The notes beneath the pieces are model-generated. The model saw only the letters and a program-made list of their open reading frames with translations. It was not told the DNA's origin and did not search any database. The position numbers and the translations under genes are program-made. Source: Parafrankia elaeagni (GTDB taxonomy: Bacteria > Actinomycetota > Actinomycetes > Frankiales > Frankiaceae). Taken from it: a DNA stretch of 64,000 nt. This document shows, in pieces, positions 2,404-48,321 of the stretch (the stretch's first letter is position 1; the number at the start of each line of letters is the position of its first letter). The stretch spans positions 66,679 through 130,678 of the forward strand of contig NZ_KB893715.1 of NCBI RefSeq assembly GCF_000374165.1. Direction: 5' to 3'.

Positions 2404-3516
2404 CTACGGCCGGTCCAGTCCGAGTTCGGCCGTCACGTCGCGGCCCGGGTCGCCGTCGGCCAGATAGCTGGTGTCGCCCCGGATCTGCCGCTCGACCAGA
2501 GCGAGGAAGAGCCTGCGGTAGCGCAGGCCAGCGGTGTCGAACCGGGAGTTCAGGTCCTTCTCACCGTCAGGGCGCAGGTAGAGGGAGTTCTGCGGTTTCA
2601 GCGCCCAGTTGTCCTGGCGCCCGACGAGATGGGCGGACAGCGGCATCATCGCCCGGGCCCAGGCCGGACCGCGCTGGGGGTTGAAGGAGACCGTGGTGCG
2701 ACAGCGGTTCGTGCTCTCGGGGTTGGCGGGGTGGACCATCCGGACCGACATCCCCGGCCGGAAATCGCCGTGGAGCAGGCAGACCCCGCTGCGGACGTAC
2801 ACCAGCGTCACTGCCCTGAAGTCCTGGAACTCGGACTTGGCGAGCTGACGCTGCGCCTTCGGCGTCCGGCGCCCGGTCGCGGTGCGCGTCATCGTCACCG
2901 TCTCCGAGGTCGATGTCACCTCCACGACGTCGTCATCGGAGAGGGCGTCGCCGGTCAGCGACGAATGCAGGTAGTCGGCGTGGGTCAGGTCGAGAAGGTT
3001 TTCGCAGACCAGCTCGTAGCTGCAGTCGAAGACCACGTTGGCGAGCTGGTGACGACGCAGGCCGCGGTCCTCGGGGAGGAACGGGATTGCGGGGATCAGA
3101 TCGGGGGAAGCGTTCGCCGGATCCCCGTACCAGACCCAGACATACCCATATCGTTCGACGCTCGGGTAGAACCCGCTGCCGCCGGTGAAAGAGCTCGCCC
3201 GCCTCCGGCCCCGCTCCCGATCGGCGGGCGAGTCCTCGCTGGCGACCAGCGAACCCTCCGAACGCCACAGGTGGACGGGCAGCCCGTGGATGGCGCGGCG
3301 CAGTCCCCGCCGGCCGACGAGGCTGGTGTGCGCAACGGGAAACCAGGTGTCGCGCAGGCCGAACGACCCGGGCCGGAAGTCCGTGGTGATCGAGGTCGAA
3401 CGGCGTCGGGTCCGCTCGTCCGGTGCGTTGTCGCCGAGCGGGTCGTCGGTCTGCGGCCCACGGTCACCGGATACGTGCGGAACCTCAGTCGAGACAGCGC
3501 TGTAACCGGTGCTCAT
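2404..3516 (-). CDS. Rieske-oxygenase catalytic subunit lacking the Rieske cluster ligands
   Basis: This 370-residue protein has the overall order of a vanillate/ketosteroid-type Rieske non-heme iron oxygenase, but the cluster-binding part is gone. After VHLWRSEGSLVASED (residues 81-95), where CxH and CxxH should follow, there is a short Arg/Ser-rich linker, and the sequence resumes at YPSVERYGYVWVWYGDP. The catalytic domain looks intact: NLLDLTHADYLH supplies Asp176, His179 and His184, and Asp327 in RFDTAGLRYRR is the likely third iron ligand. ATG 3516 has an AGGAG site. It starts 18 bp after the stop of the upstream gene, which has the opposite loss, so the two probably work as one hetero-oligomeric oxygenase. 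The substrate is unknown. Confidence 0.82.
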   Translation of the reverse strand: MSTGYSAVSTEVPHVSGDRGPQTDDPLGDNAPDERTRRRSTSITTDFRPGSFGLRDTWFPVAHTSLVGRRGLRRAIHGLPVHLWRSEGSLVASEDSPADRERGRRRASSFTGGSGFYPSVERYGYVWVWYGDPANASPDLIPAIPFLPEDRGLRRHQLANVVFDCSYELVCENLLDLTHADYLHSSLTGDALSDDDVVEVTSTSETVTMTRTATGRRTPKAQRQLAKSEFQDFRAVTLVYVRSGVCLLHGDFRPGMSVRMVHPANPESTNRCRTTVSFNPQRGPAWARAMMPLSAHLVGRQDNWALKPQNSLYLRPDGEKDLNSRFDTAGLRYRRLFLALVERQIRGDTSYLADGDPGRDVTAELGLDRP

Positions 3517-3534
3517 GACTTCTCCTGTTCGTCA

Positions 3535-4644
3535 TCACGCGCTTGTTGTCGTTGTCGTGGGCTCCGGGTGGATGAGGTCGACGGCGGGATCCGCGACGGT
3601 GGCCGAGCGGTCAGCCGCCTGCTCCAGTCGGCGCGCCGCGCGGGTGCTCCGGGTCAGCGCGACGCGGGCCGCGACCAGGGCCGCGACCCCGCCTGGGCCC
3701 GCCACTGTGAGATGCCAGCGAACGACGGTCCGGTAGCCACCGGTCGGCGTCAGCCCCAGCGCGACACGGGCCTGGTGCAGCGCGGGAGTGGTGTCGCTCT
3801 CCACGAGGAGGAGGGAACCGCCGGAGGCGATGGTGACCGTGCTTGCCCGGGAACCGCGTAGCGCCCGATCGTAGGTCGCGATCCTGCGGACCGCGAAGGT
3901 CAGTCGCTCCCGGCGAACTGAGACGGCGGCGCCGTCAGGCTTCTGGTCGAGAACCCACGGGGCCGCGATCTCGTCTCCGGAGCCGAACAACCATCCCAGG
4001 CCGAGCGCCGCACCGGGGTTGACCAGCAGCGCGTCGGCGACCTGCCGATGGGGGGCGCGGACCTCGACGGTGCCGGCGAGTGTCCGTGGGCAGCCGGCGG
4101 GGGATCCGTCACGCTCCGCCGCCGCTCGGCTGGGCGCGCCACCGTCGAGCCAGCCGGGTGCGGGCGGCGCGGTCGCCGTCCCCCCGGTCCAGGCGAGGGC
4201 GAAGGGGCCCGTCTCGACGACGGGGAAGGCTGCGACGGCGATGCGGCTCGAAGGCTTCTCGCCCGGACGGAAATTGGGGATCAACGCGCACTGCCCGGAG
4301 CGGCCGTCAAAGGCCCAGCCGTGGTAGCCGCACTGCAGCAGTCCCTGTTCGTTGACCCTGCCCAGGGACAGCGGCAGCCGGCGATGCGGGCAGCGGTCGG
4401 CGAGCGCACACACGATGCCGGCATGGTCGCGGTAGACGGCCAGGGACCGTGCGCCCAGGAGCACCGGGACGGGACTGGTGGTGATCTCAGCCCGATGGCC
4501 GAGCGGCCACCAGGCATCGGCGAGAGCGAAAGACTGGCGGGCCGGGGGGGTTCGGGCGGCCGGCGCGCCGGGGGTGCCGGGAGACTCCCCGTGCGGTTTC
4601 TCGCCAGGAGCGACCTGGGCCGTTTGGGCAGGGCTGCTCGGCAT
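3535..4644 (-). CDS. Rieske-domain oxygenase subunit with degenerate catalytic domain
   Basis: This protein has 369 residues and starts at ATG 4644 with a GAGG site. The N-terminal half holds an intact Rieske [2Fe-2S] motif, with Cys85 and His87 in [11 protein letters not shown] and Cys105 and His108 in [10 protein letters not shown]. In the C-terminal half the usual NxxDxxHxxxxH iron motif is absent; the equivalent stretch reads [14 protein letters not shown]. The rest retains a START-like length. It is the first gene of a two-gene operon with the Rieske-less partner at 2404-3516. The simplest reading is that it passes electrons to the mononuclear iron of that partner. No reductase gene is adjacent. 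Confidence 0.82.
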
Positions 4645-25674: not shown

Positions 25675-26382
25675 GTGCCTGTGCCAGCAGAGGTCGTCCG
25701 ACGCGTGCCGGACGAGGAGGCTCTTTCGGGTGATCCAGAGCATCGGTCATCCGAATGCACGAGCACGAACCCCGAGGTACTGGTTGACGACTCGGAAAGC
25801 GCCCGTCCAGCGAGGTCGAAGCCTACTCCTCGCTCGACCCGGCGGCAGGACCTGCTGCGCGCGGCGGCCCGCCTGTTCGCCGAGCGTGGTTTCCGAGGCG
25901 TGGGCATTGAGCAGATCGGTGCGGCGGTCGGGATCCGTGGGCCGGGTATCTACCGCCATTTTCCGAGCAAGGACGCGGTGCTGGTGGAGCTGCTCGTCGG
26001 GATCAGCCGGCACCTCCTGGACAGTGCCAGGGAGTCCCGTCGCAGTGGCGGGACTCCCACCGAGATCCTCGACCGCCTCGTCCGTCGGCATGTCGATTTC
26101 GCCCTGGAGAATCCGGATCTGATTGTCATCCAAGATCGTGATCTCTGGAGTCTCCCGGATGAGGCGGAGCACGACGTTCGGCGGTTGCAGCGGGCGTACG
26201 TCGAGCAATGGGTTCAGGTCCTGCGTCAGGTACGGTCGGGTCTCGATGTCCCGGCCGCCCGGGCGCGGGTCCACGCACTGTTCGGACTGATCAATTCAAC
26301 CCCCCACAGTGCGAGTGACCTTGACCATGCCGATATGGCCGTCATGTTGCACGAGATGGCGATCGGCGCGCTCCGGATCTGA
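25675..26382 (+). CDS. TetR family transcriptional regulator
   Basis: The protein has 235 residues from GTG 25675, placed seven bases after the strong AGGAGGAGG site; the open frame extends further upstream but without support. The helix-turn-helix is GIEQIGAAVGIRGPGIYRHFPSKDAV, after a charged, probably disordered 55-residue N-terminal tail. The ligand domain contains LENPDLIVIQDRDLWSLPDEA, which resembles acyl-CoA-responsive regulators of actinobacterial fatty-acid genes. As the last gene of the leucine block it is a candidate regulator of that block and perhaps of the GTTAGC regulon, although no such palindrome lies in front of it. Confidence 0.85.
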   Translation: MPVPAEVVRRVPDEEALSGDPEHRSSECTSTNPEVLVDDSESARPARSKPTPRSTRRQDLLRAAARLFAERGFRGVGIEQIGAAVGIRGPGIYRHFPSKDAVLVELLVGISRHLLDSARESRRSGGTPTEILDRLVRRHVDFALENPDLIVIQDRDLWSLPDEAEHDVRRLQRAYVEQWVQVLRQVRSGLDVPAARARVHALFGLINSTPHSASDLDHADMAVMLHEMAIGALRI

Positions 26383-26768
26383 ACGGGGGCGGGCCGTTCG
26401 CGTGGAGAGTGTCTCACCTCTCACCTCCCTGCCGGCAATTCCCGAACCGGGGTGGCAGCGGTTCCACCAGCTCCCCATCAACCCGTCCGGGACCAGCCGC
26501 CCGGCGAGGCTGCTCTCTAGCACATCCATGATCAGAGATGTATCCGGAGTAGCCGCGCAGGCCACGCATCGAAGATGCGGCCAGCATGGGAACGATCGGT
26601 TCCAGGTTGGCCGTAGGTAATTTGAACGAAGTGCGTATAGTGTGTTTAATTTGGTCCGTGGTCCGTGGTCCGTGGTCCGTGGTCCGTGGTGATGGTTCAG
26701 GCTGCGAGCTGGGGTGCCGCGAGCAGAACCTGACCGCGTCCATCAGGAAGTCTAGGCGGAGGTGTGCT
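26383..26768. other. Intergenic region with a short tandem repeat
   Basis: No convincing gene between the TetR stop and the molybdo-oxidoreductase. The only structured element is the GGTCCGT array at 26653-26690, preceded by AT-richer sequence (TAGTGTGTTTAATTTGG, 26637-26653) that could hold the promoter of the downstream operon. Confidence 0.5.
26653..26690 (+). repeat. GGTCCGT tandem repeat, five copies plus a partial
   Basis: Five exact 7-bp units (26653-26687) and GGT. A 7-bp period changes spacing by less than a helical turn per copy, so copy-number change could tune the promoter of the operon starting at 26769. Confidence 0.9.
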
Positions 26769-29104
26769 GTGTCGAGCCGACGGCGAGCCCCGGAGGAGCC
26801 CGAGAACGTTCGGGTATCAGCGCCTGCGTCCTACGCTGCCGGCCTGGCGGGCGTCGGCCATGCCCTCGCGCAGTCTCGCGACCGGATGGGTGTCCGGCGC
26901 AGCGTAACCACGCTCCGCCTCGTCAACCAGGAGCACGGCTTCGACTGCCCCGGCTGCGCATGGCCCGATCCGGGCCCGGGGGAGCGCTCGAAGGCAGAGT
27001 TCTGTGAGAACGGAGCAAAGGCGGTCGCCGAGGAGGCGACGCTCCGGCGGGTGACACCCGATTTCTTCGCGGCGCATTCGTTGGCGGACCTGGCCGGTCG
27101 GTCTGGCTACTGGCTGGGCAGTCAGGGCCGGGTCACCGAACCCATGCACCTCCCGCCGGGCGCGGACCACTACGTCCCGGTCAGCTGGTCGGAGGCCTTC
27201 GGGATCATCGCCGGCGAGCTGGCGGCACTGGACAGCCCCGACGAAGCGGCGTTCTACACCTCGGGACGGACGAGCAACGAAGCGGCGTTCGTGTACCAGC
27301 TCTTTGCCCGGACGTTCGGCACGAACAACCTGCCGGACTGCTCGAACATGTGCCACGAGTCTTCCGGCGCGGCGCTGACCTCCACCATCGGGATTGGTAA
27401 GGGTTCGGTGACGCTGGCGGATCTGGAAGCCGCTGATCTGGTCCTGGTCGTCGGTCAGAACCCGGGTACCAACCATCCCCGGATGCTCTCGTCGCTCGAA
27501 CGCGTCAAGCGAGCCGGTGGAAGTATCGTCGCGATAAATCCGTTGCCCGAGGCATCCCTTCTGCGATTCAAGAATCCGCAGCGTGCCCAGGGTGTCGTCG
27601 GACCGGGCACGAAGCTCGCTGACCAGTACCTGCAGATCAGGTTGAACGGCGACATGGCTCTTTTTCAGGCCTTGTCGCGGCGGCTTCTCCAGGCGGAGGA
27701 CGCAGCCCCGGGCACGGTGCTGGACCGCCCGTTCCTGACCGAGCACACCACCGGATTTGCCGAGTTCGCCGAGCATGTCCACCACCATCTCACCGAGGAT
27801 GAGATCGCGGAGGCCACCGGTCTGCGTGCCGCCGAGATCGACGAGCTGGCCAGCCGGGTACTTGCCGCAGACAAGATCATCGTCTGCTGGGCGATGGGCC
27901 TCACACAGCATGCCAACTCGGTCGCGACCATCCAGGAAGTCGTCAACTTCCTGCTGCTGCGTGGAAATATAGGACGTCCTGGTGCCGGTGTGTGTCCTGT
28001 GCGCGGGCACTCCAACGTGCAGGGTGACCGGACCATGGGCATCTGGGAGAAGATGCCGGAGACGTTCCTCGAAGCGCTCGGCGCCGAATTCGGATTTGAA
28101 GCGCCTCGCCACGAGGGCTATGACGTCGTCGAGACGATACGCGCCATGCGCGATGGTCGGGTGAAGGTCTTCATTGGCATGGGCGGGAACTTCGTCGGAG
28201 CAACGCCGGACACGGCGGTCACCGAGGCCGCTGTGCGCCGTTGTCGACTGACCGTTCAGGTGTCGACGACGCTGAACCGCTCCCATGTCGTGACCGGGCG
28301 GCAGGCACTCATTCTCCCCACGCTCGGTCGGACCGAGACAGACACGCAGGCCGGCGGTCCGCAGCTTGTCACGGTCGAGGACTCGATGGGCGCCGTCCAT
28401 GCCTCCCGCGGCGCCCTTCGTCCGGCCGGGCCCGAGCTCCGCTCCGAAGTCGCGATCGTCTGCGGCATGGCTGAGGCGACGTCCGCGGCGCGGCAGCCGG
28501 CGGGGATGCCCGCCGGCCCCGCCGTCGACTGGGCCGGCCTCGCCGCCGACTACCGGAGCATCCGGGCCCACATAGCCAACGTGGTCCCTGGGTTCGCTGA
28601 CTTCGAGCGCCGGCTCGCCGAGCCCGGCGGCTTCCTCCTGCCACACCCGCCGCGCGACAGTCGAACGTTCGACACCCCCACCGGGCGCGCGGCGCTGACC
28701 GTGAATGTCTGTGAGGTGCTCCGGGTCCCACCGGCTCACCTGCTCCTGCAGACTGTTCGGTCCCATGACCAGTACAACACCACGATCTACGGGCTGGACG
28801 ACCGGTACCGGGGAGTACGCCAGGGTCGCCTGGTTGTCTTCGTCAACCCCCTCGACCTGGACAGGCTTGGCATTGCCGACGGCTCGCACGTCGACCTGGT
28901 GAGTGTCTGGGAGGATGGCCTCTCCCGCCGTGCGGAGAACTTCCGGGTCGTGTCGTATCCCACCGCTCCGGGGTGCGCTGCGGCCTACTTCCCGGAGACC
29001 AACATCCTCGTCCCTTTGGACAGTACGGCCAGACGAAGCAATACCCCGACGTCGAAGTCGCTCGTCATCCGTCTGGAAAAGCATGCGGAGAACAAGGAGA
29101 TGAC

Positions 29105-46343: not shown

Positions 46344-47384
46344 GTGACCTTCGAGCTCGGCGTCTACACCTTCGGCAACACCCCCCGGCTGGCCAGCGGC
46401 CGATGTGGTCCCACCGCTCACGCGATCCGGGACGCGCTGGAGGCGATCAAGCTGGCGGACGAGGTCGGGCTGGACTACTTCGGCGTCGGGGAACATCACA
46501 TGCGGGCGATGCCACTGTCCTCCCCGACATCGCTGGTCAACGCCGCGGCCGCCGCCACGAACCGGATCACGCTGAGCACCGCGGTCACGGTACTGACGAC
46601 GGACGACCCGGTCCGGGTCTACCAGCAGCTCGCGACGGCGGCGTCGATAGCGCCCGGGCGGGTCGAGCTGGTCGCCGGCCGCGGCTCGTCGGCGATCACG
46701 TTCCCGCTGTTCGACTACGACGAGCGCGACTACGACATGCTCTACTCCTCCAAGCTCCGGCTGCTCATGGCGATCAACGCCGGCGAGAACGTCACCTGGC
46801 ACGGCCCGCACCGGACCCACCCACTACAGGGGGTCACCATCTTCCCCCGCCCGGAGCAGCCGCTGAAGATCTGGCTCGGCACCGGGGGCAGCCCCGAGTC
46901 GGTCTACCGCGCCGTCGAGTTCGGACTGCCGATGTTCCTCGGCATCCTCGGCGGCACACCCGAGCACTGGGCACAGTACGGGCACGCCTACCGCAGCGCC
47001 TGGGCCCAGGCCGGCCACCCTGCCGAGCAGGCCGACATCGCGGTCGCCGTCCACGGGTTCGTCGCCGACACCGACGCGCAGGCCCGGTCGACCTACCTGG
47101 AGTACGAGCACCGGATGATGGCCGAAGGCATGGCGGAACTGGGCCGCCCCGCCCCACCGCCCGGTGCCCGCGCCGCCGCGTTCGAGCGTGGCGGGATGGT
47201 CTTCGTCGGCAGCCCCAACGAGATCGCCGACCGCATCCTGCACCTGCACGGACTCCTGGGTCACAGCCGCCAGATCCTGCAGATGGACGTCGGTGGCATG
47301 CCGCACCGCGACGTCCTGCACGGCATCGAACTGCTCGGGACGAAGGTGCTGCCCCAGATCCGTGCCGAGCTCGGCGCACCATGA
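46344..47384 (+). CDS. LLM-class (luciferase-like) flavin-dependent oxidoreductase
   Basis: The protein has 346 residues from GTG 46344, after AGGGAG. The bacterial-luciferase TIM barrel is evident: LADEVGLDYFGVGEHHMRAM, TNRITLSTAVTVLTTDDPVRVYQQLATA (shown by TAVTVLTTDDPVRVYQQL), SIAPGRVELVAGRGS and PLKIWLGTGGSPESVYRA. These enzymes use FMNH2 or F420H2 for oxidation or reduction. FMN versus F420 cannot be decided from these motifs. It lies between the redox group and the siderophore-interacting gene. Confidence 0.9.
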   Translation: MTFELGVYTFGNTPRLASGRCGPTAHAIRDALEAIKLADEVGLDYFGVGEHHMRAMPLSSPTSLVNAAAAATNRITLSTAVTVLTTDDPVRVYQQLATAASIAPGRVELVAGRGSSAITFPLFDYDERDYDMLYSSKLRLLMAINAGENVTWHGPHRTHPLQGVTIFPRPEQPLKIWLGTGGSPESVYRAVEFGLPMFLGILGGTPEHWAQYGHAYRSAWAQAGHPAEQADIAVAVHGFVADTDAQARSTYLEYEHRMMAEGMAELGRPAPPPGARAAAFERGGMVFVGSPNEIADRILHLHGLLGHSRQILQMDVGGMPHRDVLHGIELLGTKVLPQIRAELGAP

Positions 47385-47451
47385 CGCCGCGTGCCGGCCG
47401 CGCATCGACCGCGGGAGGTCCCGGAGCGTGGTCGATGCGCGGCGAAAGCGG

Positions 47452-48321
47452 TCAGGGTCGCAGGGCCGCCTGCTCCTCGGTCTCGACCTGGTTGTTCCAG
47501 TCGCGCTTGGCGGTCTGCCAACCGTCCTCGTCGTGCCCGGCCCGCCAGTAGCCGGAGATCGACAACCATTCCATCGGCACCCCCCGCTCGACGCGCAGCA
47601 GGCGACGCAGTGCCTTGACCGCGCCCGCCTCACCGTGCACGAACACATCTCCGGTGCCGGCCGGGAATTCGACCGCGGTGACCGCCTGGACCAGCAGCTC
47701 ACCCACGGGCCGGTCACCCCGGTGTAGCCACTGGACCTCGACGCCGGCCGGCGTCCGCAGATCCTGTTCCTCCTCCCGGCCGGCGATCTCGACGAAGGCG
47801 AAGACCGGCCTGCCCGCAGGGATGCGGACGAGCGAGGCGGCGATGGCAGGAAGCGCGCTCTCGTCTCCCGCCAGCAGGTGCCAGCCGGCCCCGGGGCTGG
47901 GAGTGTAGGCGCCGCCGGGGCCGTTGAGCAGAATCTCGGTTCCCGGCGCGGCGGCGGCGGCCCAGGGCCCGGCGAGGCCCTGGTTGCCGTGCACCACAAA
48001 GTCGATCGTCAGCTCGCGGGCGTCCGGATCCCAGGCCCGCACAGTGTAGGTACGAGTCCGTGGCCAGTGCTCGCGTGGCAGCTCGGCGCGTATGACCTGC
48101 AGGTCGAACGGTTCCGGATAGGCCACCCCGGGGACGGGGAACAGCAGTTTGACGTAGTGGTCGGTGAAGTCGCCGGCGGTGAACCGGTCCAGGCCGGGGC
48201 CGCCGAACACGACGCGGACCATGTGGGGGGTGAGGCGCTCGGTGCGCAGAACCGTCGCGCGGTGCGGGGTGGGGAACCGTCGCTCCGCTGGACGGTTGGT
48301 CTGACCAAGGCGTTCTGCCAT
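47452..48321 (-). CDS. Siderophore-interacting protein (FAD-dependent ferric reductase)
   Basis: The protein has 289 residues from ATG 48321; a longer frame starts at 48378. The FAD-binding 9 domain (about 20-130) has HMVRVVFGGPGLD, HYVKLLFPVPGV and the flavin motif RTRTYTVRAWD, followed by the SIP domain with LLAGDESALPAIAASL and the C-terminal ISGYWRAGHDEDGWQTAKRDW, which matches the conserved GYWRxG helix. It reduces ferric siderophores in the cytosol. The TetR gene at 48389 precedes it in the same direction with a 67-bp gap and probably controls it. Confidence 0.92.
   Translation of the reverse strand: MAERLGQTNRPAERRFPTPHRATVLRTERLTPHMVRVVFGGPGLDRFTAGDFTDHYVKLLFPVPGVAYPEPFDLQVIRAELPREHWPRTRTYTVRAWDPDARELTIDFVVHGNQGLAGPWAAAAAPGTEILLNGPGGAYTPSPGAGWHLLAGDESALPAIAASLVRIPAGRPVFAFVEIAGREEEQDLRTPAGVEVQWLHRGDRPVGELLVQAVTAVEFPAGTGDVFVHGEAGAVKALRRLLRVERGVPMEWLSISGYWRAGHDEDGWQTAKRDWNNQVETEEQAALRP

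Follow-up and report, generated by a model that had tools for sequence, protein, structure and literature searches.

The 64,000-nucleotide stretch of Parafrankia elaeagni DNA analysed here (contig NZ_KB893715.1, positions 66,679 to 130,678; hereafter, the window) contains two adjoining genes on the minus strand that each encode a protein resembling the alpha subunit of a Rieske oxygenase, and each of these proteins carries one of the two metal sites. The upstream gene (3535..4644) encodes R, a protein of 369 residues that bears the Rieske site and lacks the iron site. The downstream gene (2404..3516) encodes F, a protein of 370 residues that bears the mononuclear iron site and lacks the Rieske site. 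Both open reading frames are in frame and full length. The R stop codon and the F ATG are separated by 18 bp, within which a Shine–Dalgarno-like AGGAGA (3521..3526, minus strand) precedes F.

The translation of R contains CPH...CGYH, the Rieske ligand pattern, formed by C85, H87, C105 and H108 (4321..4392, minus strand). The translation of F contains NLLDLTHADYLH and RQDNW, which together make up the iron-site pattern: N173, D176 (the presumed bridging aspartate), H179 and H184 (2965..3000, minus strand), and a late aspartate, D302 (2611..2613, minus strand, within the translation of 2605-2619), the presumed third iron ligand. At the place of both Rieske cluster loops, F has a short segment (3166..3240, minus strand) that is gapped against R in a profile alignment. 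When the proteins of the window were compared with Pfam, R matched the Rieske family (5.4e-19) and F matched VanA_C (2.8e-27). At E <= 1, VanA_C was the only match of F, and R matched only Rieske and, below the cut-off, Rieske_2; R had no match to a catalytic-domain family, F had none to a Rieske family, and no flavin, NADH or plant-type ferredoxin domain was found in R. A preliminary description of this DNA had given the upstream protein both Rieske ligand pairs (residues 85/87 and 105/108) and no NxxDxxHxxxxH motif, and the downstream protein Asp176, His179, His184 and a late Asp, with a deletion where the Rieske ligands should be and 18 bp between the genes. All of this is borne out at the level of single residues, D302 being the late aspartate.

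Such pairs were found at 31 loci, 28 in 25 genomes and 3 on plasmids, in Actinomycetota and Proteobacteria. A profile–profile comparison of a 16-row F alignment with a 16-row R alignment matched the N-terminal domain of F to the Rieske domain of R (E 3.9e-9), and placed C85, C105 and H108 of R opposite gaps in F, and H87 opposite an alanine. We then aligned the 31 F and 31 R sequences jointly with 28 complete oxygenases. The Rieske columns read C, H, C, H in 31/31 R and in 28/28 complete oxygenases; in 31/31 F, other residues stand in place of the first ligand pair and gaps in place of the second. All five iron-site residues (N, D, H, H, D) are present in their columns in 31/31 F, including the bridging aspartate D176 expected for intersubunit electron transfer, whereas the Asn, the second His and the late Asp are kept in 0/31 R. 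As the 28 complete proteins were picked by motif, only their late Asp (27/28, with one gap) counts as independent information. Rieske ligands are absent from every F, and a whole iron site from every R. Judged as single-chain alpha subunits, R has the CxH...CxxH pattern at 31/31 loci and F at 0/31, and F has (N/D)xxDxxH...H with a late Asp at 31/31, where R keeps the second His or the late Asp at none; judged together, the two chains contain the ligand pattern of each metal site exactly once at every locus. The complementary motif losses first noticed in the window thus hold against full-length oxygenases. Four loci (L053, L062, L063 and L064) have R proteins in which the first Rieske motif differs at its middle residue (CAH, CVH, CRH) and the ligands are kept. 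A chance C.H...C..H string in the F frame at L064 falls outside the ligand columns and was rejected as a Rieske site.

At 31/31 loci, the two genes share a strand and R is the one immediately upstream. By the best start assignable by eye, F begins between 8 bp inside the end of R and 66 bp beyond it, with short overlaps at several loci. In a first set of 59 genomes, including that of the window, F was found at E <= 1e-10 in its own genome, in one strong relative and as two weak matches (~1e-11). The strong relative (57% identity, 3e-122) lies on a contig from another family of the same class, and its R relative overlaps it by 4 bp. Scanning genome contigs with an alignment of two F members yielded 29 loci. 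Fifteen of them (L007-L021) are close relatives, with 37-65% identity over the alignment, and all 15 have an R relative directly upstream. Their hosts are Streptomyces, a Mycobacterium-labelled bin (on a contig shared with L004), Paraburkholderia, Marinobacter, Pseudomonas, Spongiibacter, a Cellvibrionales bin, a Hyphomonadaceae bin and sphingomonads. The other 14 loci (E 3e-15 or weaker) comprise 13 complete oxygenases and one, L034, cut by a contig end. Searches of the genomes of the 15 close loci and of two family samples added 12 loci, all paired; within those 15 genomes the only other match at E <= 1e-20 was a complete oxygenase (L054). Among 298 Sphingomonadaceae, 6 genomes have F, in 8 copies, and these are also the ones with R, whose 8 copies each adjoin an F gene; among 299 Burkholderiaceae, the pair occurs in 7. 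Four of 72,556 plasmid records carry F at E <= 1e-30; three were fetched and all three are paired. In a phylum-wide sample of 396 Actinomycetota genomes that included its own, the copy in the window was alone at E <= 1e-40 among the top candidates scored per genome, and the pair looks rare in this phylum. Two copies of the pair are present in each of three genomes (G461, G456 and G701); the second copies in G461 and G456 (L052 and L053) have the lowest or near-lowest scores against both profiles and are the most diverged F members.

With F-like genes counted at E <= 1e-40 in genomes or 1e-30 on plasmids, R stood upstream at every genome locus whose neighbourhood was read (28/28) and at 3 of the 4 plasmid matches, those that were fetched; no orphan F was found among these 31 loci. 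No single-chain, fused relative of the pair was present among the matches either, L054 and L022 being ordinary complete oxygenases, and the adjoining oxygenases at L028-L031 were rejected as further pairs because the joint alignment identifies them as complete proteins. The preliminary description had proposed a search for the pair in other actinobacterial genomes and had named two findings that would speak against a joint function: relatives occurring alone beside complete oxygenases, and retained ligands that are not conserved. Paired relatives turned up in Actinomycetota and beyond, lone relatives were looked for and not seen at the 31 loci, and the retained ligands are invariant in all 31.

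Each protein on its own lacks one essential metal site, as would be expected if one or both genes were decaying pseudogenes or encoded non-catalytic regulators. We consider this extremely improbable, as both frames are open and their retained ligands invariant at all 31 loci. The ratio of nonsynonymous to synonymous substitution rates (dN/dS), calculated by the Nei–Gojobori method in eight comparisons of proteobacterial genes, is also well below 1 in every domain: 0.08-0.23 in the Rieske domain and 0.11-0.39 in the metal-less domain of R, and 0.03-0.38 in the metal-less domain and 0-0.24 in the catalytic domain of F. All four domains, including the metal-less ones, are thus under purifying selection in the proteobacterial relatives. 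Together with the joint alignment, these values led us to reject chance or decay, in line with the earlier argument that these are not two dead genes; in the window itself, frames and ligands are intact.

Trees were built separately for the Rieske part and the catalytic part. In these, all R sequences form one clade (97/91) and all F sequences another (99/97), both apart from the 28 complete oxygenases. The Rieske-part tree has few columns, the catalytic-part tree has long branches, and the set of complete proteins is small and comes mostly from the F search. Distances among F and among R are strongly correlated (r = 0.95), which is expected anyway for adjoining genes. Since both chains keep both domains, duplication followed by reciprocal loss fits better than fission, and the splitting of one gene into half-genes was rejected. 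Most likely, the pair had a single origin, in which the gene for a single-chain oxygenase of the VanA/dicamba-monooxygenase type would have been duplicated and each copy would have lost one metal site; it would then have been transferred between phyla along with a gene cluster for the catabolism of polycyclic terpenoid-like compounds. By both sequence and fold, the closest solved structure to R and to F is dicamba monooxygenase, DdmC (PDB 3gb4, 3gke). Predicted single-chain models of the pair have the alpha-subunit fold over the whole chain, the predicted structure of R matches whole oxygenase chains, and the structure searches with VIA and Foldseek returned only Rieske oxygenases among the matches listed (the best 50 of each).

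The recurrence of the same complementary pair, side by side, in distant bacteria and near ring-degradation genes indicates that R and F very probably work as one enzyme. Judging from the sequences, the best explanation, in which we place high confidence, is that they form an obligate two-chain Rieske non-heme iron oxygenase that arose by duplication and reciprocal loss and acts on a terpenoid-like ring intermediate. R and F would be two non-identical alpha-type subunits: R would carry the [2Fe-2S] cluster and take electrons from a ferredoxin or reductase, and F would bind the substrate in its pocket and house the mononuclear iron together with the bridging aspartate. In known oxygenases, according to PMC12445004, electrons cross between subunits over ~12 Å, versus 45 Å within a chain. 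The transfer runs through an aspartate adjoining an iron-ligand histidine; PMC5033481 calls this aspartate universally conserved and indispensable for electron transfer. In a head-to-tail complex, the cluster of R would lie against the iron of F across the subunit interface. If the two meet at the type of transfer interface found in homotrimers, the two lost metal sites would be dispensable and, F having kept the bridging aspartate, R would donate and F catalyse only across the R-to-F interface. We infer such a physical complex, with the corresponding metal content and an electron path from R to F. The pair would oxidize a ring carbon or a methyl group of a terpenoid-like intermediate.

Two other arrangements have to be weighed against a two-subunit enzyme. 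R might be a dedicated electron carrier of the Rieske type, akin to an over-sized Rieske ferredoxin, that docks transiently on an F homotrimer and is not a stable subunit. R weakly matches Rieske ferredoxin models, and its conserved part is the Rieske domain, with a mean pairwise identity over the 31 loci of 54%, compared with 31% outside that domain; in F, the two parts have 50% and 53%. We regard a transient carrier as unlikely. Alternatively, F could draw on another Rieske donor encoded elsewhere in the genome, with R having a separate role and its adjacency being historical. The window genome does have further Rieske oxygenases and, according to PMC4408171, the caffeine-demethylating NdmC lacks a Rieske cluster and an extra cluster resides on the reductase NdmD. 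Against this stand the position of R beside F at 31/31 loci, the occurrence of both in exactly the same 6 of 298 Sphingomonadaceae and the absence from R of a reductase domain in Pfam, which together make an external donor very improbable.

The distribution of two metal centres over two chains is already known, from the two-chain chlorophyllide a oxygenase of the eukaryote Micromonas (MpCAO) and, in a different form, from NdmC/NdmD, which the preliminary description had cited. One MpCAO chain is said to hold the Rieske centre and its partner chain the mononuclear iron (attributed to Kunugi, 2013). Like the pair, MpCAO is a Rieske oxygenase in two polypeptide chains; PMC9615114 reports activity with a non-native reductase and mentions proposals of a heterodimer and of a trimer of dimers. 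MpCAO, however, is eukaryotic and specific to chlorophyll, whereas the pair is bacterial, of the VanA/dicamba-monooxygenase type (as the VanA_C match of F indicates), and encoded by adjoining genes in a catabolic setting; neither R nor F matched the CAO/PaO family in Pfam at E <= 1. A search of the open-access literature for the two CAO chains by name found nothing. In the caffeine N7-demethylase NdmC/NdmD/NdmE, as in the proposal for F, an iron-bearing chain has no Rieske cluster and is supplied in trans, and PMC4408171 presents this as the first case of a split-off Rieske domain. In NdmD, however, the Rieske domain is fused to a reductase, whereas R is a whole alpha-like subunit with no reductase domains. 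The caffeine system also needs the glutathione-S-transferase-like NdmE; the gene tables of three plasmid stretches, themselves incomplete, list no such protein. DdmC and VanA-type oxygenases, in contrast to R and F, have both metal centres on a single chain. The best NCBIfam match of both proteins is the 4beta-methylsterol monooxygenase SdmA (NF052579), which is modelled as a single chain of 351 residues; the match is weak (54.7 bits for R and 30 bits for F, against a cut-off of 600), and neither protein belongs to that family. Subunits that must combine are also described for polycyclic breakdown in PMC8399759, namely the heteromeric acyl-CoA dehydrogenases ChsE4/5 and ChsE1/2 and a MaoC-type hydratase; these are unrelated enzymes with other chemistry, and the parallel is one of logic only. 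No report of this bacterial pair was found in the open-access literature on split or heteromeric Rieske oxygenases, a search outside which most subscription papers fall.

Around the pair, the window encodes a coenzyme A (CoA)-transferase, two short-chain dehydrogenases, a TetR regulator and a divergent aldehyde dehydrogenase. Near the pair at other loci lie genes for a cytochrome P450 (P450), a fumarylacetoacetate hydrolase, an acyl-CoA dehydrogenase, a luciferase-like oxidoreductase and a flavoprotein that resembles a ketosteroid dehydrogenase below the cut-off of the model. Five pair genomes encode the alpha subunit of a ring-hydroxylating dioxygenase ~21-60 kb from the pair; on the contig of the window, such a subunit, 50% identical to that of Paraburkholderia xenovorans LB400, lies ~42 kb away. 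The LB400 subunit is encoded at G464:C3:604144-605541. The window only touches a catabolic island on its own contig. Outside the window, this contig (C46) has DitA1-like ring-hydroxylating alpha subunits at 26313-27728 and 46511-47908, accompanied by an HcaD-like ferredoxin reductase (L072:11204-12502, below the cut-off of the model).

With an alignment of six ring-hydroxylating alpha subunits from five pair genomes (A5) as the query, a DitA1-like match was found in 20 of the 25 pair genomes, the best in each at E 1e-199 or better. In 18 of these 20, an alpha subunit is encoded on the contig of the pair, at a distance of ~9-82 kb; the one so placed in G461 matches less strongly (3e-145), and in G456 and G460, the alpha subunit lies on other contigs. 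Among the 299 Burkholderiaceae, a full-length alpha subunit occurs in 4 genomes, all of them among the 7 with the pair; 18 further genomes with partial matches only (8.6e-66 to 1.9e-61) were left uncounted. Among the 298 Sphingomonadaceae, F, R and the alpha subunit (E <= 1e-100) occur in the same 6 genomes. The LB400 alpha subunit has matches on 56 of the 72,556 plasmids at E <= 1e-50. Among the 15 matches listed, identity reaches 50% on five plasmids, which include all four that carry F, so that 4/4 plasmids with F carry a DitA1-like alpha subunit. Hypergeometric odds of 1e-12, 1e-7 and 4e-18 ignore kinship, the centring of the samples and co-transfer of the island, and are therefore overstated. 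On a Massilia plasmid, a stretch of 8 kb encompasses the pair together with a P450 and both dioxygenase subunits, alpha and beta. On the Novosphingobium resinovorum plasmid pSA2, typed as conjugative, coenzyme F420 synthesis and an F420-dependent oxidoreductase are annotated less than 10 kb from the pair (L076:36307-40931).

The strain name Dha-51 presumably points to dehydroabietic acid. LB400 is reported to carry a dit cluster devoted to resin acids (PMC10710418 and PMC13063091); of its products, DitQ is a P450 and DitA is a dioxygenase of the ring-hydroxylating type. The alpha subunit found here in LB400 would correspond to DitA1 of resin-acid breakdown. A search of the open-access literature for an LB400 Rieske enzyme in the context of dehydroabietic acid found nothing. 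The linkage to the alpha subunit and the dit cluster of LB400 make resin-acid-like diterpenoids the likeliest substrates, an assignment that we hold with fair confidence, and above all where the alpha subunit is present, in 20 genomes.

Several observations weigh against a two-chain enzyme of this kind or narrow the ground for it. In R, the column of the first iron-site His holds H in 3/31 sequences, and that of the bridging Asp (D176 of F) holds D in 27/31 despite the lost iron site; both may be effects of alignment. The model of F is poor, with a predicted local distance difference test (pLDDT) score of 58, which drops below 50 near the iron ligands. The C3 symmetry of known oxygenases does not accommodate a strict 1:1 head-to-tail ring. 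The dN/dS values above 0.3 come only from the more diverged comparisons (dS 0.7-1.25), and the genes of the window, having no close enough relative, fall outside that test. The large genome searches scored only the top few candidates per genome, and the two family samples were each centred on a pair genome and each included one more that was already known. As for the substrate, five of the 25 pair genomes (G452, G453, G844, G867 and G891) have no DitA1-like match at E <= 1e-60, so that either the pairs do not all share one substrate or the linkage has no functional basis. The fifth plasmid with such an alpha subunit, from Caulobacter FWC26, has no F match. No DitA1 model is among the NCBIfam matches of the LB400 alpha subunit, a putative DitA1.

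Rieske oxygenases are understood as C3-symmetric oligomers in which electrons cross between subunits. A natural pair with one site per chain makes this rule testable by mixing, as transfer could then only be intersubunit, and allows each metal centre to be altered without touching the other. The pair would be a bacterial counterpart of the two-chain chlorophyllide a oxygenase, with the reciprocal loss fixed across phyla, and a candidate enzyme for uncharacterized steps in the breakdown of resin-acid-like terpenoids. We lean slightly towards a wider proposal: a hitherto undescribed family of obligate two-chain Rieske oxygenases in bacteria, which would have had a single origin in a duplication with reciprocal loss of the two metal sites and have spread, together with catabolic islands for terpenoid rings, over at least two phyla. 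Its assembly would depart from the C3 homotrimer, every productive Rieske-to-iron contact would be between unlike subunits, and the metal-less domains would be free for substrate binding or regulation. Annotation can hide the pair, as on the Massilia plasmid, where the two chains are labelled 'Rieske 2Fe-2S domain-containing protein' and 'oxygenase'. Finally, the actinomycete loci L028-L031 contain sets of three complete Rieske oxygenase frames close together, which are possibly biosynthetic.
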